From the NCBI GenBank assembly GCA_016617855.1, contig JAECUM010093581.1:1-64000 (forward strand): a stretch of 64,000 nt of DNA, in the 5' to 3' direction. Below are positions 8,010 to 30,768 of this stretch, in pieces. The notes beneath the pieces were generated by a model. The model was given only the letters and a program-made list of their open reading frames with translations. It searched no databases and had not been told where the DNA came from. This DNA comes from Megalonaias nervosa. Its lineage: Eukaryota; Mollusca; Bivalvia; Unionida; Unionidae. Made by a program: the position numbers and the translations under genes. Position 1 is the first letter of the stretch. The number at the start of each line of letters is the position of its first letter.

Positions 8010-8158
8010 TAGAGACAGGGTTAGAGACATAGACATATTACACAAACACAGATTTATGAACATAAATCTCTTCACACAAAAGATCAACTAAAACTCCTTT
8101 AGGCAAGAGAGAATAAGCATCTTTTCTAGACAATGGAGGGGCCCTGGAAAGGGCCTTT
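8010..8158 (-). repeat. left inverted arm carrying a histone-type 3' cassette
   Basis: The reverse complement of this segment aligns with 29115-29262 from the stem-loop outwards through AAAAGAT, TATTCTCTC, TTTTGTGTGA, TTCATAAATC, TTTGTGTAATAT and CTATGTCTCTAA. Beyond 8010 the similarity stops. It may be the inner part of a TIR whose outer left part has been lost. Confidence 0.8.
8140..8155 (-). terminator. histone-type 3' stem-loop
   Basis: On the minus strand it reads GGCCCT-TTCC-AGGGCC, a perfect 6-bp stem with a four-base loop, 12 nt after the stop of the 8168-8404 gene. A GTCTAGAAAAGATGC block follows, like the purine-rich downstream element of histone genes. The loop is TTCC rather than the canonical TTTC. 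Confidence 0.65.
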
Positions 8159-8167
8159 GGTTTTTTG

Positions 8168-8404
8168 TTAACACCATTCAGTTAACACAGAGGGCATTGC
8201 ACAGATCTTCTCTTGCTCAAATTTCGTCTGATCTCTGGACCGTAGATTAAGACTCTCTTCAGACAGCCTTGCCTCTCCACATAGATTCTTCGTTTCCAAA
8301 GAGCTGTCTCTGTGATTTGGGTAGTTGTCCATGATGATTTGACATACATGGGATAGTCCAAGTGGAACAACATCGACGATAGCCGATTCTACGTTAGTGC
8401 ACAT
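8168..8404 (-). CDS. small gene with TATA box and histone-type 3' end, unknown product
   Basis: A 78-codon frame starts at ATG 8404. A TATA box (ATATAAATAA on the minus strand, 8447-8456) lies about 45 bp upstream, placing transcription start near 8420. The stop is 12 nt before the stem-loop at 8140-8155. The product has no recognised domain; it is mildly acidic at the start and ends in LTEWC. A second overlapping frame (8182-8373) is also open and basic, so the true frame is uncertain. The promoter-ORF-hairpin arrangement is the best evidence that a gene is present. Confidence 0.5.
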   Translation of the reverse strand: MCTNVESAIVDVVPLGLSHVCQIIMDNYPNHRDSSLETKNLCGEARLSEESLNLRSRDQTKFEQEKICAMPSVLTEWC

Positions 8405-8446
8405 CTTGTAACGAGAACAGGTGAATGGAATGAGGTGAACCGCGGT

Positions 8447-8456
8447 TATTTATATT
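8447..8456 (-). promoter_or_regulatory. TATA box of the 8168-8404 gene
   Basis: ATATAAATAA on the minus strand, at a normal distance from the ATG at 8404. Confidence 0.5.
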
Positions 8457-8577
8457 GGAAGAGCGGATCGAAACTGATTGAGTTATTTCACCAATCCTAA
8501 CAAGCTTTACAAAATTCAGTAATAGTGAGGAGTCTGTCTTCAAATCCGAAGAGAGCTGCCTGTGACGTCACATTCCT

Positions 8578-8584
8578 TATATAG
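8578..8584 (+). promoter_or_regulatory. TATA box of the 8631-9266 gene
   Basis: TATATAG, 47 bp upstream of the ATG at 8631, with a GTGACGTCAC CRE-like palindrome just before it at about 8562-8571. Confidence 0.5.
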
Positions 8585-8630
8585 GTGCGCTACCGTCTGT
8601 GCGCAGTGAATTATGCGACATAGTTAGAAC

Positions 8631-9266
8631 ATGATGGAAGCTAAGAAGACGATGAATTGGCATGCACCGACCGTGGAGACGAGAAATGATGTCATTTCAG
8701 CGGCTACCAAAGCAAACACAGTCCTACTTCCAGAAGAGAACGATTTTAATTGGGATTTAGTGGATTTTCTCTCTTCTTCACAAGAATTTGTTCTGGTACC
8801 AACACATTCACCACCTTCTCCCTCCTTACCGTACCTCGATGATTTTAAACAGAGACAGAAAGAAGAATTGGAGAAATTTTTGCAACAGCAGAAGGAAGCC
8901 TTTCTCATTCAACAGCAACAGCGAGAAGAAGAAGAGGCAAGAAGAAAACGACAGGAAGAAGAAGAAGCAGAGAAGAAACAAGGTCTAAGAGAGAAGGAGG
9001 ACAGTGAAAAGTCAAACGGTGACGGTACTCTTAGACATTTTGGAAGAGTTAAGGAGTCTGAACAAATGTATCAGACTTTTTTAATACGACCCAAGAGACA
9101 AAGACCTTCCCGAGCCAAACAGTCCAACCCCGTCAACACACCTACTACGTCTGAGAGACCAACACTAGTGATTTCTACCAAATCATCGACAGTAGCAGGT
9201 CCAGACGTAGGCCTTGGCCGTGGCAAAGGGATAAGGCAGTTAAAGCTCATTACTTCCCTTCCCTGA
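8631..9266 (+). CDS. Gln/Glu/Lys-rich coiled-coil protein, unknown
   Basis: An intact 211-codon frame. The N-terminal 75 residues are mixed and acidic, with an aromatic patch (DFNWDLVDFL). Residues of about 75-125 form a charged Q/E/R/K helix (KQRQKEELEKFLQQQKEAF) likely to be a coiled coil. The C-terminus is basic and proline/threonine-rich with RPKRQRPSRAK, a possible nuclear signal. A TATA box lies upstream and an AATAAA at 9384-9389 downstream. I do not recognise a family. It stands outside the usual Polinton core and may be a regulatory or DNA-associated protein. Low complexity alone could have kept the frame open. Confidence 0.55.
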   Translation: MMEAKKTMNWHAPTVETRNDVISAATKANTVLLPEENDFNWDLVDFLSSSQEFVLVPTHSPPSPSLPYLDDFKQRQKEELEKFLQQQKEAFLIQQQQREEEEARRKRQEEEEAEKKQGLREKEDSEKSNGDGTLRHFGRVKESEQMYQTFLIRPKRQRPSRAKQSNPVNTPTTSERPTLVISTKSSTVAGPDVGLGRGKGIRQLKLITSLP

Positions 9267-9383
9267 GTTAGTTTTTTTTTAAAAAAAAAAAAGAAACATA
9301 AACACAAAAAACAAATACCCAACGGCACTTTGAAGGGTCACCACCTCTCTCGAAAAGAGACTATTCAATGTTTGCCAAAATCA

Positions 9384-9389
9384 AATAAA
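9384..9389 (+). terminator. polyadenylation signal AATAAA
   Basis: About 120 bp after the stop of the 8631-9266 frame, followed by a T-rich and GT-rich stretch. Confidence 0.5.
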
Positions 9390-9532
9390 ACTCAAGTCCC
9401 TTTTTCTCATGATTTACGTGTGTGAGTGCGTGAGTGTAGGTCCTTATTTTAAAAATCAAAACCGAGAGACACTTACGTTTTTCTTTCTGGTATGTTCTCT
9501 GGTACAAATTTACAATCCAAATTTACAACACA

Positions 9533-9992
9533 TCACTTTAAAAAGTTCATTTTTCCTTTTCTTTTTCTTTTAACTCTCCCTTTTTTGAATTTCTTCACTG
9601 TCATAGGTTTTTCTTCTTCTTCCTCACTTTTTCCTTGCCTTCTTTTCTTCTCTTTCTGGACGTGTTTGGGTTCTTCCTTTTCGGAGGGTACCTCTTCTTC
9701 CTGTTCGGAACCCCTCTCTTTCTTCTGCTCCTCTTGTTTCTTAGAGCAGTCTGAAGACCAATGTCCTTTCTCTTGACAATGATAACAGGTATCTTGACTT
9801 TTTTGACGCTTGTCTTGCTTTGACGTTGTGGACATTCTGCAGACCAATGCCCTTTCTTCTGAGAGATATAGCAAGTATCTTGACTTTTATCTCGAAAGGA
9901 GGGGGAGTAGTCCGCCGGCTTCTCTGAAAAAAACTTCGTATGACACCTCGCAAAGCTCTGATCAGAATTTCGATCTGTGTTGCTTCTTCCAT
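9533..9992 (-). pseudogene. CCHC zinc-knuckle protein with acidic/basic tail, broken
   Basis: A minus-strand ATG at 9992 opens the frame about 55 bp downstream of a TATA box at 10045-10055. The intact knuckle is CYHCQEKGHWSSDC (C-x2-C-x4-H-x4-C). A second, earlier knuckle, CYISQKKGHWSAEC, reads in another frame and has Ser for its second Cys. A run of alternating acidic and basic residues follows and ends in a very basic tail (KKFKKGRVKRKRKGK). At least one frameshift separates the N-terminus from the second knuckle. Such proteins bind single-stranded nucleic acid; retroviral nucleocapsid and cellular CNBP are other users of the fold. It is divergent from the polymerase gene and shares its promoter region. 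Confidence 0.6.
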
Positions 9993-10044
9993 CTTTCTGC
10001 TAGGATTGAGAGTGAAATGAATACTTTGAGGCAAGATACTGACC

Positions 10045-10055
10045 CTTTATATAGG
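10045..10055. promoter_or_regulatory. divergent TATA region between the zinc-knuckle and polymerase genes
   Basis: CTTTATATAGG reads as a TATA box on both strands: CTATATAAAG for the minus gene (ATG 9992), TTATATAG for the plus gene (ATG 10132). A second plus-strand candidate, GATATATAGAG, lies near 10075. Confidence 0.5.
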
Positions 10056-10230
10056 AAAGACACTGACTTTACATTGATATATAGAGAACCATGGCGTTTA
10101 AAATGTAGTCATTTGACCTTTTGCAATCAAGATGAAACGATCGCATCATTTCTTGAAGAAAGGAGAAGAAAGTAAGAGGCAGAAACGCGACCTATCGCAT
10201 CGCACAGTAGCTGAAGTCTTGGCTCAAATT

Positions 10231-10362
10231 CATGTCAGCGATATCGAAGATGACATGAGTGAACCAGAATCCAGACCCAGAGAGTCTACGTCAAATCATG
10301 TCAGCGATTTCGAAGATGACATGAGTGAACCAGAATCCAGACCCAGAGAGTCTACGTCAAAC
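10231..10362 (+). repeat. tandem 66-bp duplication in the polymerase N-terminus
   Basis: Two adjacent, nearly identical 66-bp units each encode a 22-residue acidic block containing DDMSEPESRPRESTSN. The reading frame is preserved. Confidence 0.9.
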
Positions 10363-13300
10363 CAAAGTCCGACGTACCGTTGGAGAAAGCAGAACAGTTC
10401 ATCACCGATTTGTGGGATTCTTTGTTAACCACACTGAAACGACAATGTGAAGCCAAAGAAGACGATCGCTTGAGACTTTCCATTTATCGCGACAGTTTGA
10501 AGTCACCTGTTTGGATCGAGTTTAGCAGTCCAGCAGAATTGACACCTTCCAAAGTCATCTACAAGATTCAACACGCGCATCTATCCAACGATAAGTCTCG
10601 CATCACGGATGGAAAGCTACGCTGTACATGACCCACGTTTCTCTTCCCAAAGGGACCGGACAACGCAGAAAAGTGTTATTGGTGGACGATCTTCGCAGCA
10701 CCAAAACGATTCTCGTCCGAATTAACAACCCTCAAGACGAGATGTTTTAGCCTCTGCCATCGTGGTGGTATGAACGTATGCTGACAAAAACGACAAGGCC
10801 GAATGGAAAAGAGCCTGGCAAACTATTCGAAAATCGAACCGAGCCAAACAACAAAGAGAAGCAGAACTCCTGTTACAGCAAGTCGGCCTGTCCAAAGACA
10901 CACCCTATGGCATTCCTGAAATGCAAAAATTGCAAGATGTCTTAGCTCCACGCCACGTTGAAAGTACACCCTCAAGAAGTGTGCGGACCTCTGTTGTTTC
11001 GAGGCAAAAATCTCAAAGACGAAGTATATATTCACGTCTATCATAACGATGAACATTTCGATGCCATTACTAGTATTACTGCATTCCTGGATACGGTTAT
11101 CATTGTGAGAAATGTGACTATGGTTATAACAATCGAGAGCAACACAAGCATTGTGGATCGAAATGTGCGGGATGTTTGGCCTCTAAACCCTGTCTTGATG
11201 AAAGACAACAACGAGTGCATTGCCCAACTTGTCAGCGAACTTTTTTCAGCCCAACCTGTTACCAACAACATCTGAAGAAGCAAGGTTCACAGCAGAAAAG
11301 TGCTTGTCAGCTCCTGAGATTGTGTCCTACTTGTGGACAAGTGATACGTAGTAATAATGCCAAGGCACACATATGTCCAGGAAAGAAACGATGTCACATT
11401 TGTCACCAAATTGTAGACTTGGAACACGAATGCTACATTCGAAAATACAACCCCAACAGGAGGAGGAAGAATATGACCAGAATAAGAAAGGCAATTTCAT
11501 CTTTTTCGATTTCGGATGTATGCAAGAGACCGGCATTCACATTCCTAATTTCTGCTTGGCTCATCGAGCATGCAAGAAGTGCATCCAAGAACCGAACTTT
11601 TGTCATTGCCCTCACTGTAGCAAGATTGCTGGAGGATGTGAAAAATCTTTCTGGGACCGAACACATTGGCCAATTTTGCCCAGTGGATCTTAGACCCTAT
11701 CGTTGAAACGTGGAGTCAAGAGGATTTCGAACGTTACGGAGATTGTCATCGCTATGCCACGTTGATGGCTCACAATTTCTCGGGATACGATGGACAGTTT
11801 CTTCTCAAATACTATTGGAACAAAGTAACGAACGTCCTAATATGTCTTTGAACGGAGCCAAAATCATTTTCATTCAAGTGGGGCAAGTACAGTGTAAAGA
11901 TTCGATGAGTTACTTGGCCATGCCTTTGAGTCGAATGCCCTGAAACGTTTGGAATGACAGAAATGGATATTTTCCACACTTTTTCAATACCGAAGCAAAT
12001 CAACATGCCGTTCTACTCCATTTGCCTTATGCTCACTACTACGACCCCGACAACATGCGCACCAAACAATGAGAAGCTTTCTACACTTGGTATCACACAC
12101 ACGCCTCGGACCCCTTCGACCTTCAGGAAGAAATGTTAAAGTATTGTCGTTCCGACGTGGACAATTTACGGCGATGCTGTGGAAAATTTCGAGAACTGTT
12201 CATAGAACACGGAGGGATCGATCCTTTGAAAAAATCCTGCACCATTGCCAAAGTGCGTTCTTTAGTGTACCGCAAACGATTTATGCCCGAGAAGACCCTG
12301 GTTGTCATACGCCCTCAGACGACGAACTTTGTCAAACGTCAATACTCGATCAAAGCCCTACTCTGGCTACATTACTTGAGTGACAAGGAAGACAAATGGA
12401 TCCAACACGCCCGAAACGGAGGAGGTGAAAGACCATTGGAACGTATTTGGCGGATGGCTGGGACTTAGAAAACGGTAAGATCGTGTACGAGTTTAACGGT
12501 TGCTTAATTCACGGATGTCCGATCTGCTACCCACAACAGTACACCCAAAATCAGTTTTTACAATGTACCATGGAAGACTTGTACGAGGCCACTTGACAGT
12601 GGCGCTTTAAGTTAGAACAGCAAGAATACCAAGTGGTGGAAATGCGGGAACACGAGTACAATCACCGTTTGAAAACCGATCCAGAATTTAAACGCATCGT
12701 GGAAAGTTACAAGTTGGTGGACCCTTTGAACCCGCGGGACAGTTTGTATGGAGGACGGACGAATGCCACCTGTTTGCTGTACCACGCCGACGAGAAGAAA
12801 GGAGAAGAAATCAAATACTTGGACGTGTGTTTGCTGTATCCTTACGTATGCAAATATTGTCACTTTCACGCAGGGCACCCACAATTGCTGATGGAACACA
12901 TCGACCTTGACAACATTCGACAATACGAAGGATTAATTAAATGCAAAGTCTTCCTCCCACGGACTTCTGTCATCCCGTTTTACCTCACCATTGCCGAGGA
13001 AAACCGATGTTTCCCCTGTGCCGCACTTGTGCCAAAACGTGCAACCAAGACCAACCTTGTCAGCACACCCAGGAAGAACGCGCCTTGAGAGGAACGTGGG
13101 TCAGCGTGGAATTGTTTAAAGCTCTGGACCTGGGATACCAATTAGTAGAAGTGTACGAAATTTTCCACTTTCCAAAGACAAAACAGTACCACAAGGGTGA
13201 CGAGACTGAGAAAAGCATTTTCGCAGACTATGTGGATGCCTTTCTGAAACTGAAATAAGAAGCCAGTGGCTATTCTTCCTGGTGCCATACTCCCGAAGAC

Positions 13301-14103
13301 CAAAAGAAATTCAAAGAGAAATACTTGGAGCAGGAAGGAATCACTTTAGACCACATCAGAAAAACTAAGGAAGGCGACCGTTTGCCAAAATGATGTTAAA
13401 TTGCTTGTGAGGCAAAATGGCACAACGACCGTGTTTGCTGAAGACGGAGTATTTGATAGAAACTTCCAGGTGATTCACGACAAAACCAAATACATGAAAC
13501 ACATGGACGTCCTTCGTGAAGACTTGATCCTGGTAAATAACAAAGAAGAACTGGACTTTGTACAAGCCGACGAATTTGGAAATGTCATCATTGCTGACCA
13601 CGTGACAGCCCATGCTCGCTTAAAATTGTACTAAGCCTTGCACCAGTTAGGAGATCGTGTACTGTATTTTGATACGGACAGTTGCATCTACATCGATCAC
13701 CTGGGTCAACGTCATCCAGACATCGAAGGAGGCAGTTTAGGAACCTGGATGGACGAGCACCCCAACGACAAGATTCTAAGTTTTGCTAGTGGCGGTCCCA
13801 AACATTACGGCTACGAATACTGTAACCCCAAGGAGAAGTGCACACCGAGTATAAAGTCTAAGGATTGACTCTAAATCATCGAACGAGACAACTGGTGAAC
13901 TTTGGGGTATTGAAGGAAGCCTTGCAGTCTGGAGAGGATCAACATTTTAAAGTGACCACCTACAAGCCTCACAAGACTGCATTTAGTCACACACCAAATC
14001 GTCGGTCGACCTTTGGAAAAACTTGATCAAATCGTGTACTAGAAGCGTATGCGGCTTCCCAACCACTTCACTTTACCGTACGGACACGTCGATATTGGTC
14101 AGC

Positions 14104-14113
14104 ATATAAAAGG
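14104..14113 (+). promoter_or_regulatory. TATA box of the BIR gene
   Basis: ATATAAAAGG overlaps the polymerase stop region, about 60 bp upstream of the ATG at 14167. Confidence 0.5.
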
Positions 14114-14166
14114 GTAAACGTCCAAGACCGATAGTTCATTGTGACCACAATTGCCAAGCAAGAAAG

Positions 14167-14640
14167 ATGAATCCTAACAAACAGACATAATTCAGGTTCG
14201 GGTGCGAAAGCAATGCCCCTCGTTCTCGTGGACTCTTTACTCGTTTTTATGGTCAATGTCATCATCCACGTGAAACCATGCGGCTACCATCCTATGGATG
14301 TCGCCCATGCCTGAGCAAACTACTGCGGATTTTACCGTCCCCTCATGGATATGAGCCTGTGAGAGAAGAACATTCGTTCCCTTTGCGTTTGTCTGAATAC
14401 TGCGACTTTGAAAGTCGTTTCCAAACCTTCCAAGGAAAGTGGCCTAACTATCTGAGAGGATCTACCACCGAAGACTTAGCCAGAGCTTGACTTATCTATT
14501 TGGGAGAAGGTGATAAAGTCAAGTGCTTCAGTAGCGGTGTGTCACTTCACGAGTAGGAACAGAAAGATTCCCCTTACATGGAACATGCTCAATGGTCTCC
14601 GCACTGTCACTACCTACCTTTAGTGGGACGACCTCAGTAA
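14167..14640 (+). pseudogene. BIR-domain (inhibitor-of-apoptosis-like) protein, broken
   Basis: One frame runs from ATG 14167 to TAA 14638-14640 (157 codons), interrupted by TAA at 14188, TGA at 14488 and TAG at 14554. Residues of about 78-150 match a BIR repeat: RLSEYCDFESRFQTF, the W of GKWP, LARA before the first break, LGEGDKVKCF, then a zinc-site spacing of C-x2-C-x16-H-x6-C ending in EHAQWSPHC. The second zinc Cys is Ser here, and the tryptophan of the usual LxxW position is a stop. BIR proteins bind caspases and IAP antagonists; baculoviruses and some other large DNA viruses carry them to block host cell death, so a similar role in the ancestral virus is inferred. No RING domain is seen. 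It is flanked by the polymerase and 14645-15001 in the same direction. Confidence 0.75.
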
Positions 14641-14644
14641 TCTC

Positions 14645-15001
14645 TTGATGGATACTTTACAAGAGAAAGTTTGTAGTTTGCCTGTGGAGCTGAGAGAACG
14701 CATTTACAGGGAGTTTGTCAAAATGCGAGTCAAAAGCAAAGAACAATTGCATCCATCACGTCACCAATGTTGGAGCCACTGGTACCTGAATGCTATAAGA
14801 GGACTTATTCATTTGAAAGCGTTCCAACGGTCAGACATTGATCAACTACCCAAGGGTCAGAAGACTTTGGTTGCTACTGATTCTACTTACATGGTGTCCA
14901 TACTACAACGAATTCCAGAGGAAGCCTTAGAGGATTATCAAAATCTTTTGCGGGATCAAATTTTGTTTAGAGAAAAATTCTGTGCGGTGTGTGGTGTGTG
15001 A
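14645..15001 (+). CDS. unknown 118-residue protein
   Basis: An intact frame from ATG 14645 (or 14648) starts 4 nt after the BIR stop. It is helical and charged in character (LPVELRERIYREFVKM, RIPEEALEDYQNLLRDQ), with a short Cys pair near the end (CAVCGV), so it may be truncated at a zinc site. No family was recognised. Its tight spacing to the BIR gene suggests a shared transcript. Confidence 0.5.
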   Translation: MMDTLQEKVCSLPVELRERIYREFVKMRVKSKEQLHPSRHQCWSHWYLNAIRGLIHLKAFQRSDIDQLPKGQKTLVATDSTYMVSILQRIPEEALEDYQNLLRDQILFREKFCAVCGV

Positions 15002-15087
15002 ACTAGGGACTAAATTATTTGTATACGTCGACGGAGTACGATCATTTCTGTGCAAAAAGTACACTTATTACCTCCGACAAAAAGAGG

Positions 15088-15097
15088 TATAAAAACT
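15088..15097 (+). promoter_or_regulatory. TATA box TATAAAAACT
   Basis: Identical to the box before the packaging ATPase (15950-15959). ATG candidates lie at 15105 and 15110. Confidence 0.55.
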
Positions 15098-15109
15098 TGC
15101 TACCATGCC

Positions 15110-15750
15110 ATGACCTTTATCAGTAGTGATACAACAATTGACGTGGAAGGAAATCAATGACAGTATTCAGACTGTGGAGGATTACCAACACTTTTTACGA
15201 GAACTGTATCCAAAGAATTTAGGTCGACGTGTGGTGTGTGTCTTAGTGACTTCATTTCTGGGATTTCGTTTACAGCCGGTTCCTTGTGGGCTCTTTACGA
15301 TCTGTACCTCACAGTACCACCAAAACCATGAGGATGATACCTTTAAATGTACACGAGAGACTCATTCTGTTAAAAGCCTTGCGCTTTCATCTCGATACTT
15401 TTCGACCTCATCGGGAAAAAAAATTCGTCAAATTTTAGTCACTGGAATGTTTAGGAAGATGTGTGTGTAGCTTGTGACATACACCCTCACTGGCAAGGTG
15501 TACGCGACTGGAAATGTTTGGGCTTCGAGGCTTGGAAAAAAAGAAGCGGCGAACTATGCCCAAGATTTGTAATCATAAATTCAAACGTTCAGTGAAAAAG
15601 GTAACTTTTAAACCTGCGTTAGCCACAGTGTTAGAAGAAGAACAACCCGACACCGACGAAAACCACCCCATTCAGGACAGGACCATCACTGACATGGACA
15701 TCCCTGAAAGGCCATTCCGGGAGGACCCCTGTGTGGCTGTGTCAGTGTAG
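15110..15750 (+). pseudogene. unknown basic protein, frameshifted
   Basis: A TATA box precedes ATG 15110. The frame shifts within about 20 codons to the long block 15126-15470, then again to 15514-15750. The blocks include WKEINDSIQTVEDYQHFLRE, a Cys-containing middle (PVPCGLFTI, FKCTRE) and a Lys-rich then acidic C-terminus (KRSVKKVTFKPALATVLEEE). Total length is about 210 residues. I do not recognise the family. It lies between the BIR and ATPase genes in the same direction. Confidence 0.45.
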
Positions 15751-15771
15751 AGCTTCTAAGAACATTACCAA

Positions 15772-15786
15772 GTGTCCCTAGGACAC
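15772..15786 (+). terminator. 3' hairpin after the unknown gene
   Basis: GTGTCC-CTA-GGACAC, a perfect 6-bp stem with a 3-base loop, followed by CACACC, 21 nt after the stop at 15750. The position resembles the histone-type hairpins but the loop does not. Confidence 0.35.
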
Positions 15787-15927
15787 CACACCTTCGTCAC
15801 CAAAATTGTTGTACAGTGACTTTTTATATTCCACTTTGATCGTTTTGATGTGTATTTTATCGATGTACTTAACTATTTGGCTTTTATGTATTTTTGTCTT
15901 TCATGTTCAATTTAAAAAATGTTTTGA

Positions 15928-15933
15928 AATAAA
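15928..15933 (+). terminator. polyadenylation signal AATAAA
   Basis: Lies after the 15110-15750 gene and just before the next TATA box. Confidence 0.5.
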
Positions 15934-15949
15934 CGTGCCCTGAAAAAAG

Positions 15950-15959
15950 TATAAAAACT
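15950..15959 (+). promoter_or_regulatory. TATA box of the packaging ATPase
   Basis: TATAAAAACT, 45-54 bp upstream of the ATG at 16004. Confidence 0.6.
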
Positions 15960-22891: not shown

Positions 22892-22906
22892 AACAAAAAA
22901 AACAAA

Positions 22907-23475
22907 ATGGATACCTAGGAACTTTATTACCTTTGAAAAACAGTTGTACACCGCTTCTTGGAATCCTGTTGTGTGCGCTAAAGATGGACTTCCTCATTGG
23001 AAACCTAAAGACCATCAAGCTTATATCATCAACACGGACGACAGTCATCTCCCAGGAACCCATTGGGTAGCCATTTACTTTCCTCACGATGCCTGTGTGC
23101 AGTATTTTGATTCGTATGGATTACCGCCTTTGGAAGACAACATCATCGATTGTATGACGCACAGATTTAATGGTGTGTGGACAATACTGGGTGCATTTTC
23201 TTCATCAAGGCAGTCTTTGATATCTCTTAGAACATTTAGTGACTTATTTTGATCGTGACTCTTCTAGAAATGATGAAAAAGTAGATCGATGGTTTTATGA
23301 CTGTTATGGATACCTCTTGTCTTTAGCTAGGAAACATAGTGTACATCAATGGCCAAATGACCTCCATCAGTGGAAGTCTATCTTGACTTCACAACGTTGT
23401 CAACCTTTCAAAAATGTGTTATTTGATATTGTATGGATTGTTATATTATGTGTTGGTTGTTTGTTGGTTGAATAA
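22907..23475 (+). pseudogene. adenain/Ulp1-like cysteine protease, broken
   Basis: Maturation protease of the Polinton particle. ATG 22907 is followed by a TAG three codons later and a frameshift. The main block has HQAYIINTDDS, the catalytic His in GTHWVAIYF, the acidic partner region YFDSYGLPPL and, after a further frameshift, the catalytic Cys in CGQYWVHFL (near 23172). The C-terminal block 23239-23475 includes a motif like SRNDEKVDRWF. A stop lies at the frame junction near 23250. An AATAAA overlaps the final stop region (about 23472). Confidence 0.8.
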
Positions 23476-23477
23476 AA
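23472..23477 (+). terminator. polyadenylation signal AATAAA after the protease
   Basis: GTTGAATAAAAATG overlaps the end of the protease frame. Confidence 0.45.
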
Positions 23478-23655
23478 ATGTTATTAAAAATAGCGTTGGT
23501 GGTTTGTTTTAAATCTTTTTTATCACTATCTATGCTCTTTGACTTCTCTCCATCACTCACCATGAGATGAGCTATAGCGTTCCTACCCAAAAGCCGTAGG
23601 GATATTTTCTATCGTTTCCGCGCTTGAGCCACATAAAACGGGGCGGTCTCCAGTC

Positions 23656-23690
23656 TGACGAGCCATTGTTGACTCGTCAACCTATAAAGA
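23656..23690 (+). promoter_or_regulatory. hairpin plus TATA box upstream of the 23788 gene
   Basis: A 7-bp stem (TGACGAG 23656-23662 with CTCGTCA 23673-23679) is followed directly by CCTATAAAGA (23681-23690). The next ATG with a long frame is about 100 bp on, at 23788. Confidence 0.5.
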
Positions 23691-23787
23691 TACATTCAAG
23701 ACAAGCAAAGCTGAACGAAGCCCACGTGAATTTATATCGTGTCAGGCAAAACCTGATACCCAAGCCTGATGAGATTGAAATGTCAGG

Positions 23788-24057
23788 ATGCTAAAAGTGG
23801 CTCAAGACCTGATAGAAGAGGCGTTTAAAGATGAAATTAAGAAGGAACAAGAAAAATGGACCTAGAAGTATAGACTTCAGAAACAGCAGAGAGAACAGCA
23901 ACAGCAGCAACAACAGCTGGAGCCAGACAGGTTTTGTGGACTACCGTGTGGACACGAAAGAGTTATCCTTCTCCTTCCGAAGAAGCAGGCACTATCCTTT
24001 CGAGTAAGCCTGCAGCCAGACAGGGACACAATCTTAGACGATAAGAGATTGCCATAA
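23788..24057 (+). pseudogene. Gln-rich small protein with histone-type 3' end, one internal stop
   Basis: ATG 23788 to TAA 24055-24057 is one frame of 89 codons plus the stop, with a single TAG at 23863-23865. The first 25 codons form a charged helix (AQDLIEEAFKDEIKKEQEKW). After the TAG come a Gln run (QQQREQQQQQQQ) and a Cys/Leu-rich segment (FCGLPCGHERVILLLPKKQA). The stop is followed 13 nt later by a perfect histone-type stem-loop. No family is known to me. The TAG may be a late mutation or sequencing error. Confidence 0.45.
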
Positions 24058-24070
24058 CCCTCAACAAAAC

Positions 24071-24086
24071 AGCCCTTTTCAGGGCT
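24071..24086 (+). terminator. histone-type 3' stem-loop
   Basis: AGCCCT-TTTC-AGGGCT: perfect 6-bp stem and canonical TTTC loop, then ACCCCA as in histone mRNAs. A TTGAAAAGAT block lies 13 nt downstream (24099-24108). A separate AATAAA at 24240-24245 follows. Confidence 0.75.
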
Positions 24087-24434
24087 ACCCCAACAACCTT
24101 GAAAAGATATACTATTCCATTGTCAAAATTTGTCTGTCTTTGTGTTTGTCTGTAGATTAAAAAAATGGAAGTTTGCCTATAAACACTTCATTTCCCTGAC
24201 TTGTAACATATTCTATGTGTTTTAATATGTATGAGTGGTAATAAAGTGTGTTTGACGGAAAAAAGTGAACGTGGGTGTTTCTTTTAGGTCCGCGCGTTCC
24301 ATATTATTGATGGTTGGGTGGGTATCGTTAGTTTTCTCATTCAGTCTGAAGTCCGCAGCGAAGAGAGCAGCAGCACACACTAACAGCGCTAGTGATGGAG
24401 ATAATAATTCCCGCTCAAGCATTGAGTGCGATAC

Positions 24435-24448
24435 AAGGCTTAAGCCTT
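24435..24448. repeat. perfect palindrome upstream of the 24569 gene
   Basis: AAGGCTTAAGCCTT, 14 bp, about 120 bp before the ATG. Confidence 0.7.
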
Positions 24449-24568
24449 AACCTCTCAACCGGCTGAAGTTTAGGAGCTCAAGAGAAAAGAACAACCTTGC
24501 TCTTAATCTGGGAGAATAAAGAAGAAACTTTCACAAAGTAAAAGGCCAGCAATCGGAGAAGCGGAAAC

Positions 24569-25267
24569 ATGCACCGACAGAGGGAACAAGAAATGCAGAC
24601 CCAGTCTGGGAGCATCCCGCCAAAACCGACTCCTGAAGTTAACAAACCCCAGCAGTCGACCCAGCCTAACATCGAGACAAAAGAAGCCCAGCTGACGGTC
24701 GAAACTGCCCAGGCACCGGACCACGTTTCGGAAAAACAACAACAGCAACAAGAAAAGGAGACTTATGCGAGTAAAGTTACCCATAGTCCCAAAGAAACGA
24801 CAACCTGGCAGAAGGTAACACGTGGGTCCCCACCCACTCGCACATTAGCAGCAGACCTAGAGCTATCTTCGAATAGTGAAAGCAGCGATAACGAAGAAGA
24901 GGAAAATATAGTGGAAGCGGAAGTAACAAGGCATAGAAAGAACAGAGAGGTATTCCAATCTATGGAGATAAGTACCGTTGGACGACCTAAAAAAGCAGGA
25001 AACTTCATCAGTGCGGTCAGATATCTTGCTTGGAGATCGCTCGACACAAAGAAGCCTAGACCTACACAATGGCACTTCGGTGTGAGAATCCTCTCACAAT
25101 GCTACAAAAAAGCCTACCGTCATTACCCTATACACAATCTGGTAGACGCTGATAAATACCTGTGTGAAGTGCATGGGTACCAGGCATTTCCCGAACAATT
25201 AGGGAAGGACTCACGTTCTGCGGAGGAAAATAGAGACATGGAAACCGACCGCCGCACCTTCGACTGA
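24569..25267 (+). CDS. unknown 232-residue protein with conserved-looking C-terminal domain and histone-type 3' end
   Basis: An intact frame. Residues 1-70 are Gln/Pro/Thr-rich, 70-130 acidic and Ser-rich with a cluster SSNSESSDNEEEEN, and 138-210 look globular: GRPKKAGNFISAVRYLAWRS, WHFGVRILSQCYKKAYRHYP, LVDADKYLCEVHGYQAF. The globular part has regular aromatic and hydrophobic spacing and two Cys but no family I can name. A stem-loop begins 11 nt after the stop. No TATA box is obvious upstream; (TTTTAG)GTCCGCGCG near 24284-24296 could be a splice acceptor. A working gene at some past time seems likely. Confidence 0.6.
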   Translation: MHRQREQEMQTQSGSIPPKPTPEVNKPQQSTQPNIETKEAQLTVETAQAPDHVSEKQQQQQEKETYASKVTHSPKETTTWQKVTRGSPPTRTLAADLELSSNSESSDNEEEENIVEAEVTRHRKNREVFQSMEISTVGRPKKAGNFISAVRYLAWRSLDTKKPRPTQWHFGVRILSQCYKKAYRHYPIHNLVDADKYLCEVHGYQAFPEQLGKDSRSAEENRDMETDRRTFD

Positions 25268-25278
25268 AATGCCACAAC

Positions 25279-25294
25279 AGCCCTTTTAAGGGCT
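25279..25294 (+). terminator. histone-type 3' stem-loop
   Basis: AGCCCT-TTTA-AGGGCT: perfect 6-bp stem, loop differing from TTTC at one base, 11 nt after the stop at 25267. The downstream purine element is not evident. Confidence 0.6.
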
Positions 25295-25315
25295 AAAACT
25301 GCCTATTAATTTAAG

Positions 25316-25339
25316 GGATTCCATTTTGGCTTGGAATCC
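25316..25339 (+). other. 8-bp stem hairpin just after the stem-loop
   Basis: GGATTCCA (25316-25323) and TGGAATCC (25332-25339) around an 8-base loop TTTTGGCT. Confidence 0.6.
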
Positions 25340-25708
25340 TTTGGTTGCCGATCAAAATTACAAACTTATACCTAATATTGACTCAAAAGACAATAACGTC
25401 GCTTAGACATATAGTACAAAATTTTTAGGGAATTATTTCACGTACACTTATGTACTAGAATTAAATTCGATAGTTAGGTCGTAGGAAAAAATTTTCATAA
25501 CTATTTGAGAATTTGTATAATTGCACTGGTGGCTTACACACTATTGGCATTAGGGCCCGTCCATTAGTACAACTGAACTAAATTTGACCAATCAAGTGCG
25601 GCCTTGCGTTTGAGGGCGACAACATCCATCCCCCAACCCACCCCCGGTCACTTTCCACCTTTTCCTCGACCAGACTAATTAAACAGTGCGACCTTCGCAC
25701 AAACGCGC

Positions 25709-25739
25709 GGGGTTGTAGTGGCACCATTCCTACAACCCC
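25709..25739 (+). promoter_or_regulatory. 10-bp perfect hairpin with TGGCACCATTC loop
   Basis: GGGGTTGTAG pairs with CTACAACCCC. The loop resembles the GTGGCTCCAATTC loops of the hairpins at 28332 and 28383. Confidence 0.75.
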
Positions 25740-25752
25740 GAACAATTAAAAA

Positions 25753-25806
25753 GCCTGACATTCAGGCATAAACTAGTCGCGAAAGCATTAGCTTTCGTAT
25801 GCGACT
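25753..25806 (+). promoter_or_regulatory. two further hairpins upstream of the duplicated TATA cassette
   Basis: GCCTGA-CAT-TCAGGC (25753-25767). Then AGTCGC/GAAAGC (25775-25786) pairs with GCTTTC (25791-25796) and, after a GTAT bulge, GCGACT (25801-25806), a 12-bp bulged stem. Confidence 0.7.
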
Positions 25807-25825
25807 ATAATTCTTCTTCATTCAT

Positions 25826-25897
25826 TGTTAGTTTTTGTGTAAGGGTATGTTGTCCTTCACGTCCGTGCTTCAAGTATATAAAGCGTAGCGTTCGTAT
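25826..25897 (+). promoter_or_regulatory. TATA promoter cassette, copy 1
   Basis: Contains CTTCACGTCCGTG then TATATAAA (25875-25882) and G-GTAGCGTTC. It lies about 55 bp upstream of the ATG at 25936. Copy 2 is exactly 1,000 bp downstream. Confidence 0.7.
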
Positions 25898-25935
25898 GTC
25901 TGGCTACCTATCGTTGACGTAACAAGATCAACAAC

Positions 25936-26041
25936 ATGAACAGAGCACAGGAAATAATGGAACTCCAGATGCATCTGGAAAATGCTCATCGCCTCCTAGA
26001 CGATCTAGCCATGGAGGCTATTGCTGAAGAAGAAGAAGAAG

Positions 26042-26072
<31 letters not shown>

Positions 26073-26400
26073 TGTCTTAGATGATGAGGAGAAGGAGAAA
26101 GACAAAGGCATAATCCTGCTGATGCAGCCAATTTGCGATGTGAAGCCTGTCTTGAAGACACCATTACAGAAGCCACCGCAAGCGTTCACGGTGCCTCGTA
26201 CCAAAGATCGGGACTTGGAGCTGGAGCTACAACGCCAAGAGTGGGAACCTCAGCGACCACAGCAGCAGTATCAGCACGTACGAGCAAGGCATGCCATCTT
26301 CACAATCCCTGAAACCAAAGACTGGGGGAGAGTGAAGCGAATCAACCTTCTTCATCACTCCCCGTCCTTACCATTTCGTGGGAGAACGGTTGAAGCGTAG
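25936..26400 (+). CDS. polyglutamate protein, unknown
   Basis: An intact 154-codon frame. It begins with an amphipathic helix (MELQMHLENAHRLLDDLAM), then a run of about 17 acidic residues from (GAA)n, then a Pro/Arg/Gln-rich half with two related blocks, QAFTVPRTKDRD and HAIFTIPETKDWG. That is an internal duplication separated by about 45 residues. The promoter cassette is directly upstream. A degenerate histone-type stem-loop follows at 26468. No family recognised; an acidic DNA-mimic or transcription-factor-like role is possible but unsupported. Confidence 0.55.
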
Positions 26401-26467
26401 ATGTGTGTGCGGTGCTAGACATGGGAGGTGCGGACATTAACCAGGTACAAATGAAATTCAAAACAAC

Positions 26468-26483
26468 AATCCTTTTCAGAGCT
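26468..26483 (+). terminator. degenerate histone-type stem-loop
   Basis: AATCCT-TTTC-AGAGCT keeps the TTTC loop and the CCTTTTCAGAGCT-like core, but the stem has mismatches. Position relative to the 25936-26400 gene fits the series. Confidence 0.35.
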
Positions 26484-26519
26484 AATCATATCTCTAGAGA
26501 AGAGTTGCCAATCATATAA

Positions 26520-26720
26520 TTATGTGTGTATGTGTGCGCGCGTACGTTTGTGTGTGTGTATGTGTGCATGCGTGCGCACGTATGTTTGTGTGTGTGTGTG
26601 TGTGTTTGTTTTTTCCTTAACAAAATACCCTTGTCCCTGCACAAAATAATAGTGTTTCTGTGTATGTGTGCGCGTGTGCGTTTGTGTGTGTGTGTGTATG
26701 TTTTTTTTTCCTTAACAAAA
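26520..26720 (+). repeat. (GT)n-rich microsatellite region
   Basis: Two blocks of TGTGTG and CGCG/TGCG mixture, each followed by a T-run, CCTTAACAAAA and CCCTT (26614 and 26710), so the whole 150-bp unit appears duplicated. Confidence 0.8.
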
Positions 26721-26825
26721 GACCCTTATTCCTAAACACAAAAAGTTTGGTATTAGTGTGTTGTTTTGTACAAAAAAAAAAATTAAGTTAGCACTCTCAT
26801 CACTATGGGCTGTTTGGTATGTGAT

Positions 26826-26897
26826 ATGTGTAGTTGGTGTGAGGGGATGTTTTTCTTCACGTCCGTGTTTGAGGTATATAAAGTGTAGCGTTCATCA
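26826..26897 (+). promoter_or_regulatory. TATA promoter cassette, copy 2
   Basis: Shares CTTCACGTCCGTG, TATATAAA (26875-26882) and GTAGCGTTC with copy 1. It is followed by GCGTCATTCAA (26901-26911), a leader motif also found before the 28720 gene. Confidence 0.7.
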
Positions 26898-27400
26898 ATC
26901 GCGTCATTCAAGATTAAGTTACATTTAAACAGAGGATAACGATAACCGCCCAATACAAAGATAAGGAAACCTAATATCATCCCAAGGAATACAAATTTTA
27001 ATAAAGAAAAAGAAGGGGAAAAAAAAGATGAAGGGAAGAGGAAGGAATGTGAAAAGAAAAAGAAAGGGAAAAGATGGGAACAAAGTCAGTTAAAATGATT
27101 CAAACAACCAATGCTAGCAATAGGGCATCCAAAGAATCCTAACATCTACTTTAAAAAAAAAAAAAAAGAACACATCACTGCTCAGACCTTGACAGATCTT
27201 ATAAAGGGGGCTGGTGAAGAAGAATCGGGGGAAATGGGAAAAGCCGGATTTTATCCAGGTCGGAATGATAATGCTTGTCATACGACGGACCCTATTTCAC
27301 TCGTGAAAGCGACAACTGCCCCCAAATGTCAGTCAAAGATAATAAAATTAACCTATAAACTAGACATAGCACATCGAGGGTAGTGTAAATTATAGATAGT
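26898..27400 (+). other. decayed gene module downstream of promoter copy 2
   Basis: Purine-rich sequence (26998-27085), with only a 21-codon frame encoding KGRGRNVKRKRKGKDG from the ATG at 27028, and a weak frame near 27111-27383. No clear gene or stem-loop. It looks like a dead member of the accessory series. Confidence 0.35.
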
Positions 27401-27770
27401 AAATTACCAATAAGACAAATAATCAAAACTAGCAGTAAGTAACCAAGGACGAATAGCACCAAGCCAAATAAAAAGAAATAGTAAACTAGATAATATGACA
27501 ACAATATATAAAATCTTTGTTATCACAACCACTCACAGACATGTCTGACAAAGATCATATAAATCCTTAACCAATCCACACACACCCTTTTTCTCCAAAT
27601 TTTTTTTCTCCTCTATTATTCCTTCTATATACTAAATGCCAACAAACTAAATAACCAACAACCTTCCCTCTATCAACTTTCTTCGTTCCGAAATGACAGC
27701 TATATCAGTAAGCAAATATGAGATTACCAGAATTAATAAGTACAATTTAGTCCATAAAATTAACATTAAA

Positions 27771-28080
27771 AGGTGGTCAAAACACCCAAATAAACTTACA
27801 ACATGAGCACATTAGGACCCCAAATTGATAATTCATAAGGTGGACAAAACACCCAATGACCATCAGGCCCCGCCGCACAAGGTGGCAAAATAAATATACC
27901 ACTTAGTCAAAATGACCCAAACTAAACAATTCACAAGATGGTCAAAACACCCAAGACCATCAGGCCCCGCAGTATAGTGGCAACTTAAACACTATGGAAT
28001 GCCATGTAAGACCCCATAACAAAAGCACATATTAAGGCGGTCTCAGCCCAGTACATCAGGGCCAGCTACACAAGGTGGCA
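27771..28080 (+). repeat. imperfect repeat of about 100 bp
   Basis: Four copies of AAGGTGGTCAAAACACCCAA-like sequence, the inner ones with GACCATCAGGCCCCGC and CACAAGGTGGCAA. Starts are near 27771, 27836, 27933 and 28035. Confidence 0.7.
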
Positions 28081-28331
28081 AACCTAAATTTAGAAACTGA
28101 CTAAACAACAAATAATTTATGGTTGTCACCAAAGATATCTCCACCTGATTAACAAGAACAAAAACAGCACAGAGGTTTTTCAAAATTATGCAAAAACAAC
28201 AAAAATATTTAGGCGACGATATCGGAGTCACTGAGTACCTTCCTGTGGATCGGCACCAACCGACCGACCCTCCTACCATGCCACAAACAGACATCACAAA
28301 TTAACAGCATTCAATGCACGAAAAAAATTCG

Positions 28332-28592
28332 GGGGAAAGTGGCTCCAATTCAGCTCCCCAAGAGAAGTCATACATAAAAACTTGGAGAGTGTGGCTCCAA
28401 TTCCGCTCTCCACAAACATTTAATAGCAAGCGGTGGATGCGGGTTCAATCAATGAAATGATTGGCATGCGTGTTACTAATCCCGTCAATTCTATGTCCCG
28501 TGGAGCATTAATAGTGCACCTAAAACAGACAAAATTAACAGCACACCTTGTGTGCATAAACGCGTGGGGAATGTGGCTCTTTTTCCTTCCCC
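28332..28592 (+). promoter_or_regulatory. three hairpins with GTGGCTC loops and differing stems
   Basis: 28332-28359: GGGGA/TCCCC ends, loop with GTGGCTCCAATTC. 28383-28412: TGGAGAG/CTCTCCA, loop with GTGGCTCCAATTC. 28566-28592: GGGGAA/TTCCCC, loop with GTGGCTC. Stem bases change while pairing is kept. They lie upstream of the 28720-29055 gene. Confidence 0.6.
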
Positions 28593-28719
28593 CATGATCA
28601 ATTAAGCATCCTGCTGTGCAGGCACAAACTCGTTGCACATGCCCAATTGGTCGCACGCTACGTTAATTCGATAAATCAGTTAATCAAAATTGCGTCATTC
28701 AACATTAAATAATTTAACC

Positions 28720-29055
28720 ATGGCGACAAACCATGTGGACAAGATGCTTAAATTGCAGGAAGTGGTAGATGATATTGGAATGGTAGAAGAGATGCTGGTC
28801 AGATTGGAGGATGGGTGTTATAGCCCTCACCGTGTAAAGATGGAGATTAACAATTTAAGGAAGGCTAAGGAACGATTGAAAGAAATGATCAAGGAGGAAA
28901 AAGAAGAAAAGGAGGACAAAGAGGAAAAAGAACAGATAAGAACTTATAACAAAAAATTGATGAAAGAAGAAGAAAACGGAAAGAGGAAACTAGAGGAGGA
29001 AAGGAAAAGGAGGTGGAGTATGAGGAGAAAAAGAAGAAGAAGACGAAACATGTGA
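28720..29055 (+). CDS. Glu/Lys/Arg coiled-coil protein with histone-type 3' end
   Basis: An intact 111-codon frame from ATG 28720, preceded by the leader motif GCGTCATTCAA at 28691. The first 60 residues form a heptad-like helix (VDKMLKLQEVVDDIGMVEEM, HRVKMEINNLRKAKERL), the rest an E/K-rich then R-rich low-complexity helix ending RRKRRRRRNM. The purine-rich strand continues for 45 bp past the stop, so the original frame may have been longer. A stem-loop follows at 29118. Family unknown. Confidence 0.5.
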   Translation: MATNHVDKMLKLQEVVDDIGMVEEMLVRLEDGCYSPHRVKMEINNLRKAKERLKEMIKEEKEEKEDKEEKEQIRTYNKKLMKEEENGKRKLEEERKRRWSMRRKRRRRRNM

Positions 29056-29114
29056 TGGAGAAGATGAGAAGTTGGTGGAGGAGAAGAAGAGAGGAGAGAA
29101 AATAGAAATAAGTT

Positions 29115-29262
29115 AAAGGCCCTTTTCAGTGCTACTCCATTGCCTCAAAAAGATACCTATTCTCTCGTGCCTCAAAAAAATTTTAGTCGATGTTTTGTGT
29201 GATTGATTTCTGTTCATAAATCTATGTTTGTGTAATATCTCTATGTCTCTAATCCTGTCTCT
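29115..29262 (+). repeat. right inverted arm carrying a histone-type 3' cassette
   Basis: Partner of 8010-8158. It begins with the stem-loop that follows the gene at 28720-29055. Confidence 0.8.
29118..29133 (+). terminator. histone-type stem-loop in the right inverted arm
   Basis: GGCCCT-TTTC-AGTGCT keeps the TTTC loop with one stem mismatch, then ACTCCA. A CTCAAAAAGATAC block follows at 29143-29155, then TATTCTCTC. Confidence 0.55.
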
Positions 29263-29568
29263 ATGTCTATGTCTCTATTTGGTCTTAGAGTAACGCGTAT
29301 TTAGATCAGCCCCTTGCCACACTGTTCCGCCCGATTGAAGTCAGCCGCTTGTAACATTTTGCCAGTGTCCAGTACCGTGACGTCACCCCTGTTCAATTCC
29401 TATTGTCCCTACACAGTCCCAACCCCTTGTCGCTATACATTCCCTATGTTAAATTCCCATTGTCCCTAGACAGTCCCACCCATGTTAAAGTCCCATTGTC
29501 CCCAGAGTGCAAACGACCAAATTTAACACTCAAGTCCCATTGTTCCTAGATCGTCCCCCTTCACTACT
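29263..29568 (+). repeat. right terminal region with repeated TCCCATTGTCCC units
   Basis: At least five diverged copies of a unit with CCCATTGTCCCTA.ACAGTCCC, the last followed by ATCGTCCC and CACTACT. The same series occupies 30500-30768 in the miniature element, supporting 29568 as the right end. Confidence 0.65.
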
Positions 29569-30256
29569 TTGGACATACCTGAACATGATTAGCTAATCTT
29601 AAGATTCAGAGTATACTCCAGATAAACCAGTGTGGTATTTAAAGGTAAATCACTGAATACAAGTGTAAAATAGCATTGATGTTAGTGTGATATGGTCATA
29701 TGGATATGGCACTATCTGTGTCTTTAGTGTACATGTTTATACCATCTCCGGTGAAATGAGGCAAAGAAAGCACACAAAAAAATGAGAACAAAAAAGTGAA
29801 AGCAAAATTATCAACGATTAAAAAGTATTGGCATGATTACAAATCATAGACTTCTATTTTCATAAGTTGATTTTACTTAGGTGGCAGCAGACCCTTGTTT
29901 AGCCAGATAAGAATAAAATAAAGCATGAGACGACAGAAATCTACTGGTAGGGCAAACAACACAAATGCACAAATTGATCAAACAATATTATAAAACCCCA
30001 AAGAGGATACAGACATATTTTAATACCTCACTACGTAGTTGTTAAACTAAAAACCATCACGAATTAACTCTATGAAAAATAGCAAAGAAATAAATACATG
30101 ACAAATATTCACCTTTTTGAACAGTTTACCTTTTCTTAATTTCCAAAGTGTCTATAATATGTTAATGTCACAGTGAAGAAATTAAACTTATATTTACATT
30201 TGCTATGCAAGTGTGTACTTCTACATGATTAATTTATAACATATTTGATATACTTG
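29569..30256. other. A+T-rich non-coding spacer
   Basis: No ORF, RNA gene or repeat recognised between the Polinton right end and the miniature element. Confidence 0.5.
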
Positions 30257-30768
30257 AGCAGTATATGGGGACGATATAGCGACAATGGAACTTTAATGTT
30301 AAAATAGTGAGCTTGCCCTATGGCTTAACGTTACATTGCAGAGAAAGAGAGAGAAGAAGAAGGGAGGAGAGAAAGTAGAAGAAAGCTAAACGGCCCTTTT
30401 CAGGGCCACTCATATGTCTGGAAAAGATGTCTATTCTCTCTTGCCTAATTTTTTTTTTCACATACAAAATGGTTTGTATATATAAACCCTATGTTCAATT
30501 TCTCTTGTCCTTATACAGTCCCAGTCGCTTGTCGCTATGTTCAATTTTCCCTTGTTGCTATACAGTCCCACTCCTTGTCACTATGTTCCAATTTCCCTTG
30601 TTGCTATACAGTCCCAAACCTTTGTCGCTGTACTGTCCCAATCTCTTGTCGTTATACAATCCCACCCATGTTAAATTCCCCATGCTAAATTCCCCTTTTT
30701 GCCATAGGACAAGCTCACTATTTTAACATTGAAGTCCCATTGTCGCTATATCGTCCCAATATACTACT
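30257..30768. mobile_element. miniature inverted-repeat derivative of the Polinton
   Basis: About 65-bp inverted ends (30260-30324 and 30701-30765) match with four differences; outer sequence AGCAGTATAT / ATATACTACT. Inside are a purine-rich remnant like the tail of the 28720 gene, the perfect stem-loop at 30392, and TCCCATTGTCCC units like 29263-29568. It therefore looks like the two termini of the large element joined by deletion. No clear 6-bp target duplication (flanks TACTTG and TACGTA). Confidence 0.75.
30392..30407 (+). terminator. canonical histone-type stem-loop in the miniature element
   Basis: GGCCCT-TTTC-AGGGCC then ACTCA, with CTGGAAAAGATGTC 12 nt downstream and TATTCTCTCTTGCC after that. 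It is the closest of the six to the metazoan histone consensus. Confidence 0.8.

Follow-up and report, generated by a model that had tools for sequence, protein, structure and literature searches.

Candidate histone-type mRNA 3' ends on genes of a virus-like element in Megalonaias nervosa

Introduction

Why would genes of a virus-like element end in the kind of hairpin that closes histone mRNAs? The question is raised by a stretch of 64,000 nucleotides (nt) from the genome of the bivalve Megalonaias nervosa (GenBank assembly GCA_016617855.1, contig JAECUM010093581.1, positions 1 to 64,000 of the forward strand), called the window here. The window contains what appears to be an element of the Polinton/adintovirus kind, and hairpins with GC-rich stems and T-rich loops lie behind several of its genes. 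In histone 3'-end formation, SLBP binds the stem-loop, the U7 small nuclear ribonucleoprotein (snRNP) pairs with a downstream element, and the pre-mRNA is cut between the two; the mammalian downstream element has the purine core AAAGAG (both as set out in parts of PMC7026596).

The original prediction was that the ancestral virus made some non-polyadenylated, S-phase-linked mRNAs through the histone 3'-end machinery of its host. Support for this reading comes from other copies of the element in the genome, from three decayed host histone gene ends of similar form, and from host matches to SLBP. We consider it probable, with a probability of roughly 0.75; the absence of poly(A) and the link to S phase are what we infer from these signals.

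Results and Discussion

Hairpins and downstream elements in the window

Two classes of hairpin are distinguished. Class A has the consensus CCAAA-GGCCCU-UUUC-AGGGCC-ACU, followed after about 14 nt by (G)AAAAGAU/G, and class B is the hairpin type behind the gene that starts at 24542 (gene 24542). In class A both signals are present, correctly ordered and spaced and on the right strand; in class B there is only the stem-loop. The features of the element are listed below with their matches to the Rfam family Histone3 (RF00032), for which the curated cut-off is 34 bits.

8119-8126, minus: U7-element-like GAAAAGAT behind the 8140 hairpin
8140-8155, minus: class A hairpin with the loop UUCC where the left-end gene ends, inside the left terminal inverted repeat (Histone3 at 8115-8160, minus, 23.4 bits, E 0.044, below cut-off)
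8168-8449, minus: left-end gene, from the list of open reading frames (ORFs), 93 amino acids, very many copies in the genome, no Pfam match
8628-9266, plus: left inner gene, from the ORF list, 212 amino acids, divergent to the left-end gene
9324-9339, plus: seventh hairpin, decayed stem, with intact counterparts in five loci
9352-9359, plus: U7-element-like GAAAAGAG behind the 9324 hairpin
23866-24057, plus: open frame of 63 amino acids ending 13 nt before the 24071 hairpin
24071-24086, plus: hairpin AGCCCT TTTC AGGGCT then ACCCC, outside the terminal repeats (Histone3 at 24066-24110, 28.3 bits, E 6.4e-4, below cut-off)
24101-24108, plus: U7-element-like GAAAAGAT behind the 24071 hairpin
24542-25267, plus: gene 24542, open frame of 241 amino acids, multicopy in the genome
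25279-25294, plus: class B hairpin AGCCCT TTTA AGGGCT, 11 nt past the stop, found in 60 of 60 chosen copies
25316-25339, plus: second conserved inverted repeat GGATTCCATTTTGGCTTGGAATCC, class B only
25594-25674, minus: degenerate histone H4 remnant, a single frame with the pieces SGRGKGGK and MDVV-ALKR, interrupted by a deletion and a stop
25918-26400, plus: acidic open frame of 160 amino acids, divergent to the H4 remnant
26468-26483, plus: weak hairpin remnant, 4 of 6 pairs, without a downstream element
28684-29055, plus: right-end gene, open frame of 123 amino acids, whose relatives precede hairpins in loci L001, L011, L018, and L023
29118-29133, plus: class A hairpin with 5 of 6 pairs, past the right-end gene (Histone3 at 29113-29158, 20.3 bits, E 0.6, below cut-off)
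29147-29154, plus: U7-element-like AAAAAGAT behind the 29118 hairpin
30392-30407, plus: intact class A hairpin, apparently a second copy of the right-end sequence (Histone3 at 30387-30432, 37.1 bits, E 3.3e-7, over cut-off)
30421-30428, plus: U7-element-like GAAAAGAT behind the 30392 hairpin

Six hairpins with a 6-bp stem had been predicted. All six pairs form at 8140, 24071, 25279, and 30392, five form at 29118, and only four at 26468. The histone-type layout that had been assigned to the set held in part: one of the six named sites (30392) exceeds the Histone3 cut-off, three match below it, and 25279 and 26468 have no Rfam match even at E 10. (G)AAAAGAT and TATTCTC had been described behind several of the hairpins. 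At four of the six sites (8140, 24071, 29118, and 30392) an element (G/A)AAAAGAT is present, with 14 or 15 nt between the hairpin and its AAAAGAT, and ATTCTC or ATTCC comes next; no such element is present at 25279 and 26468. The placement of stems just past stop codons was confirmed, with 12, 13, and 11 nt between stop and stem for the stops at 8168, 24057, and 25267. A site that had been overlooked, at 9324-9339 on the plus strand behind ORF 8628-9266, has a decayed stem and an intact CTCGAAAAGAG behind it.

Class A thus shares with the 3' end of metazoan replication-dependent histone mRNAs a 6-bp stem, a 4-nt U-rich loop, CCAAA/CCAAC and ACY flanks, a purine element AAAAGAG/AAAAGAU about 14 nt behind, and the position past a stop codon. 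The difference is that the genes are non-histone, accessory genes of a virus-like element, and that class B has no downstream element.

To ask how often such structures arise by composition, 200 dinucleotide shuffles of 6901-30600 were made. Hairpins with at least five pairs, a GC-type stem, a T-T loop, and AAAAGA[TG] within 28 nt were observed three times, compared to a mean of 0.015 and a maximum of 1 in the shuffles. Six-pair hairpins of the same stem and loop type were also observed three times (mean 0.28); the shuffle maximum here was 3 and, therefore, the stem alone is less telling. Hairpins with at least five pairs numbered 13 (mean 3.6, maximum 10). A chance origin was rejected by the shuffles of hairpin plus element, by the genome-wide pattern, and by the samples chosen by protein that are described below. 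The sequence AATAAA occurs 15 times on the plus strand of 7001-31000, about the expectation from composition by a hand estimate, and no argument was built on it.

Terminal repeats

Two pairs of inverted repeats bound the element: 8010-8068 with 29205-29263 (93% over 59 nt) and 8099-8158 with 30389-30448 (85% over 60 nt). The idea that the six sites are independent evidence was rejected, since 8140, 29118, and 30392 lie in or beside these terminal repeats and are therefore not independent of each other. The sites at 9324, 24071, and 25279 are separate.

This position raises another explanation, namely that the hairpins are DNA-level elements that serve replication, integration, or packaging and only resemble histone ends. 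Conservation of about 130 nt behind gene 24542 as a whole, at 77-88% per block and with a second inverted repeat, would also suit such a role. However, unrelated genes outside the repeats (those before 9324, 24071, and 25279) end in the same hairpin, in the sense strand and past their stops. The loop is asymmetric (UUUC, UUUA), so that a reversed copy would look different, and the spaced GAAAAGAT/G resembles what remains of the host histone genes. We regard a DNA-level role as unlikely, and the reading as histone-type mRNA ends is preferred.

Class A hairpins in other copies

The genome scanned comprises 2.19 Gb in 54,709 contigs, and all relatives examined are other copies in this same genome, many of them broken. 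A Histone3 scan gave 75 scored matches, the best candidates only, of which 66 exceed the cut-off. The best 30 of the 75, with flanks of up to 1.5 kb, were searched by tblastn with H2A, H2B, H3, and H4 (E 1e-5), and a histone gene was found in 0 of 30. For these loci we could therefore reject the possibility that the hairpins are parts of host histone genes. Pfam likewise gave no histone match among the window frames scanned. By tblastn, 17 of the 30 loci carry the left-end gene, four the right-end gene, one another piece of the element, and eight nothing at E 1e-5; six of those eight look like right-end genes when the translated frame before the hairpin is read by eye. In five loci (L012, L015, L021, L029, and L030) an intact hairpin stands behind a homologue of ORF 8628-9266, the frame whose own site at 9324 has decayed. 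Good Histone3 hairpins with an A-rich downstream element are also present in L019 and L022 (position 1501), adjoining neither a recognized element gene nor a histone gene.

Loci were also chosen by protein. The left-end gene has 8,318 first-look candidates in the genome, of which 150 were scored and the best 30, the window itself included, were cut out. A strict pattern (at least five pairs, GC in the stem, T-T in the loop) found a hairpin just past the gene, in the sense strand, in 22 of the 30 copies; the window's own 8140 hairpin, with its loop TTCC, is among the eight misses. Twenty of these 30 loci (L039-L058) gave 25 Rfam matches at E<=0.05, of which 24 are Histone3, nine of them over the cut-off, and one is a tRNA. 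A Histone3 match lies at the end of the left-end gene, on its strand, in 16 of the 20. Eight of the 20 have a match in the opposite strand at a distance of 1.1-1.5 kb, close to the 1.2 kb that separates 8140 and 9324 in the window.

Covariance scores at background level in relatives would have spoken against the original prediction, and these scores are above it. The presence of hairpins at the gene ends of related elements is borne out for copies in this genome (22 of 30 for the left-end gene and all 60 for gene 24542). IMG/VR yielded no relatives by DNA pattern or capsid protein, in a search that may omit records of this genome.

The downstream element was counted over L001-L067 for distinct intact hairpins by pattern; RF00032 had served to select 30 of the 67, which biases the set to good hairpins. 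Behind 36 of 48 hairpins A[AG]AAGA[TG] follows after 14 (26 cases), 15 (9), or 16 nt (1). It reads AAAAGAT in 33 and AAAAGAG in three, and 12 of the 48 hairpins have none by this pattern. The class A end in L004 reads GGCCCTTTTCAGGGCCACTCATATATCTAGAAAAGATGTCTATTCTC, with the 3' part ...ATCTAGAAAAGATGTCTATTCTC.

Class B hairpins behind gene 24542

Gene 24542 was sampled with 60 of its 154 scored matches, hand-picked to reach residue 239 or beyond and to span 89-38% protein identity. In all 60 copies the expected hairpin is the best one of the 280 nt fetched. It stands 9-12 nt past the first in-frame stop in 54, and the stop is elsewhere in the other six. Six pairs form in 42 copies and five in 18, and the loop is TTTT in 29, TTTA in 27, TGTA in two, and TTCT and TTTC in one each. 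The hairpin block is the most conserved block past the stop (94% compared to 77-88% in the others), although the proteins are greatly divergent. Eight of the 20 class B copies tested match Histone3 at E<=1, with 18-29 bits and always in the sense strand.

A further possible explanation is a hairpin peculiar to RNAs of the element, to which a viral or another cellular protein binds and which resembles the histone stem-loop by convergence; class B with its second inverted repeat would be the typical form. Class B fits this in that A[AG]AAGA[TG] occurs within 30 nt in 0 of 60 copies, its flanks differ and are not of the ACCCA type, and 0 of the 20 copies tested exceed the Histone3 cut-off. Class A, on the other hand, has stem, loop, CCAAA and ACY flanks, spacing, and purine element in common with histone ends, and no other Rfam family appears at E<=1 in the 20 class B copies. 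We judge such convergence very unlikely and prefer the reading as histone-type mRNA ends.

Some other features of this gene and its surroundings were observed. About 130 nt of non-coding sequence behind class B (about 20-150 nt past the hairpin in L068-L127; window 25295-25440) are conserved in copies with protein identity down to about 40%, and the second inverted repeat GGATTCCATTTTGGCTTGGAATCC lies within this stretch. A hairpin of the 24071 type stands upstream of the gene in 4 of 20 copies and was not found in the other 16; AGAAAAGAG or GAAAAGAC follows three of the four. Gene 24542 is an orphan family, sometimes with two scored matches on one contig (C933, C25130), and its protein has no homologue elsewhere at E<=0.001 among 5.8 billion proteins.

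Pairing in the stem

RNAalifold, run on a gappy alignment of the stretch behind class B genes, returned only four weak pairs and not the stem-loop. The stem was therefore counted on an ungapped alignment of 33 hand-picked sequences (7 window sites, 12 of class A type, and 14 of class B), partly picked to show variation, of which 29 are distinct. In this set 96% of stem cells are paired. The outer pair over the 29 distinct sequences is A-U in 16, G-C in 10, and G-U in three, and is never broken. None of 500 shuffles reached the covariation score.

Host histone ends, SLBP, and U7

The assembly yielded no intact replication-dependent histone genes; the H4 search gave 7 and the H3 search 26 matches, mostly broken or partial. 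The comparison with the host therefore rests on three decayed gene ends. H4 on contig C40725 ends in ...AAAACGGCCCATTTAAGGCACACAAACCTCTAGAAAA (GGCCCATTTAAGGCACACAAACCTCTAGAAAA), with a recognizable stem and a spacer of about 13 nt. H4 on C13211 ends in ...CTCGAGAGCTCCACACTACACAAATCTCTAGGAAAGAGCATTCTC (CTCTAGGAAAGAGCATTCTC); most of its stem is lost, and its spacer is longer. The end of H3 on this contig is followed by AAGAAAGAG. Of the H4 copies read that lie outside the element, L032 and L033 retain a downstream element.

The SLBP RNA-binding domain has two host matches on C954, of 67.6 and 39.5 bits, both over the cut-off of 27; a single stop lies within the second. As for U7, the class A element CTAGAAAAGA could pair with the host U7 small nuclear RNA (snRNA).

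The H3 search also turned up something else. Fifteen of the 26 matches cover just a short N-terminal tail of H3 (about residues 3-29, with 79-93% identity) that lies in small open frames, for example in L128 and L129, where a second frame starting MSK lies downstream. It looks like this tail is carried by a repeated element.

A histone H4 remnant inside the element

The minus strand of 25594-25674 has a frame SGRGKGGK*PGVGWGMDVVALKRK, in which the beginning of H4 and its end helix are kept and the middle is missing. By itself this remnant is weak (tblastn E 0.07). However, within the same flanking sequence, residues 1-36 of H4 survive in L035 and residues 2-55 in L036. Of 20 copies read, 19 contain a related stretch about 300-450 nt past gene 24542, and short H4-like peptide pieces are present in at least 16 of the 20 among the matches listed, at E<=1 and individually weak. 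From these pieces it follows that the element family once carried an H4 gene of host type. In L036 the remnant and a broken gene point away from each other, and this gene has a class A hairpin at its end. The remnant hints at capture from the host, and such a gene would offer a source for the 3' signals. An inverted repeat GTCCAGTTGTACTAATGGAC (window 25559-25578, one change) lies beside the remnant in most copies aligned.

The remnant brings up one more explanation, in which histone ends were captured with the histone gene, spread by duplication within the element, and have no function. The degenerate H4 gene in the family and the many broken gene copies are what one would expect from such passive remains. 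Yet the hairpin persists while the adjoining protein drops to 38% identity, it is the best conserved block past the stop, and a paired change is kept at the outer stem pair. Passive remains are highly improbable to us, and ends that once functioned are the better account.

What kind of element carries the hairpins

Two pieces match the polymerase family DNA_pol_B_2 (PF03175) at E 2.3e-5 and 4.2e-5, both just below the curated cut-off. Integrase, packaging ATPase, and adenovirus-type (C5) protease gave weak Pfam matches only (E 0.11, 0.042, and 0.13) from broken genes whose pieces were searched apart. A profile search of PDB sequences found no capsid protein. A structure model of a database relative of the capsid piece, of low confidence (mean predicted local distance difference test score, pLDDT, 51.3), matches best an uncharacterized bracovirus protein (E 7.6e-9), then capsid proteins of a MELD virus, adomavirus, and giant viruses (E 1e-5 to 1e-3), and adenovirus hexons more weakly, with template modelling (TM) scores of about 0.3. 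The terminal inverted repeats are about 21-22 kb apart and give approximate ends. Together with the terminal repeats, these matches fit a Polinton/adintovirus-like element, without proof.

The element resembles Polintons/Mavericks and adintoviruses in its inverted terminal repeats and, less certainly, in DNA_pol_B_2-like pieces, in a capsid-like fold modelled for a relative of the capsid piece, and in weak integrase, packaging ATPase, and C5 protease matches. Unlike them, it has histone-type 3' ends and an H4 remnant. Histone-related genes are found in other animal DNA virus lineages; a bracovirus carries an H4 gene. Adomaviruses have 'Histoid' genes, according to a part of PMC11071296. Here, in contrast, the H4 gene is a degenerate remnant, and the feature that stands out is the mRNA end on other genes.

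Among the papers listed for the open PMC full-text literature, judged by titles and the beginnings of abstracts, none on Polintons or adintoviruses reports such histone-type 3' ends, and neither does any that deals with viruses together with SLBP, RF00032, or the histone stem-loop. The main text of PMC8097293 and PMC4028283 contains neither the word histone nor stem-loop.

Weighing the reading

Several observations count against histone-type mRNA ends on these genes. A number of hairpin stems in the window have decayed. Three class A sites are part of terminal repeats or adjoin them, where conservation may have other causes. Only one stem pair shows a double change, which is not above the shuffles (429 of 500). 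Class B departs from histone ends in the ways given above. The failure to find intact host histone genes belongs here too, as does the search for U7 snRNA: one genome search was empty, controls included, and a further search gave 136 matches compared to 147 for a reversed control, with none of 13 candidates read being convincing. Finally, the H4 copies L031 and L034 have no such downstream element. Our confidence is slightly lowered because of these two copies and because one of the other three has a longer spacer.

A model for the ancestral virus can be proposed as follows. The ancestor of this Polinton/adintovirus-like family would have carried genuine histone-type 3' signals on several accessory genes, mostly near its ends. 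Class A transcripts would contain an SLBP-type stem-loop shortly past the stop and, about 14 nt later, a purine element to pair with host U7 snRNA. Host SLBP and U7 snRNP would then cut between the two. The products would be short viral mRNAs with the stem-loop at their end and no poly(A) tail, and they would accumulate while the cell is in S phase. For class B genes, SLBP could act on the stem-loop without a clear U7 site. The signals were probably taken from host histone genes, of which the degenerate H4 between element genes may be a trace.

None of the 25 best-scoring hairpin places in the window ends a frame assigned to polymerase, ATPase, integrase, capsid, or protease. Therefore, judged from the window frames, histone-type ends look restricted to accessory genes. 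This could extend to a two-way scheme in an animal DNA virus lineage, in which accessory genes end in histone fashion through SLBP and U7, core genes have ordinary ends, and the signals come from a captured H4 locus. We put the scheme forward tentatively, at a little under even odds. If it is true, non-histone metazoan mRNAs made with the histone 3'-end machinery would be known here for the first time. A virus that borrowed the histone ending would tie its genes to S phase and escape poly(A)-based control, which would explain why poly(A)-selected RNA-seq might miss Polinton transcripts. On non-histone genes, the copies would supply naturally occurring candidate substrates for SLBP and U7. They would also be a concrete example of cis-signals that may have been captured from a host gene.

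Other hairpins in the window

Outside the element, a repeat array at 39668-41910 contains short hairpins, TGGTTGTTTTTAACCC and similar, many of them at 48-nt steps. Weak, sub-threshold matches to microRNA models lie nearby.

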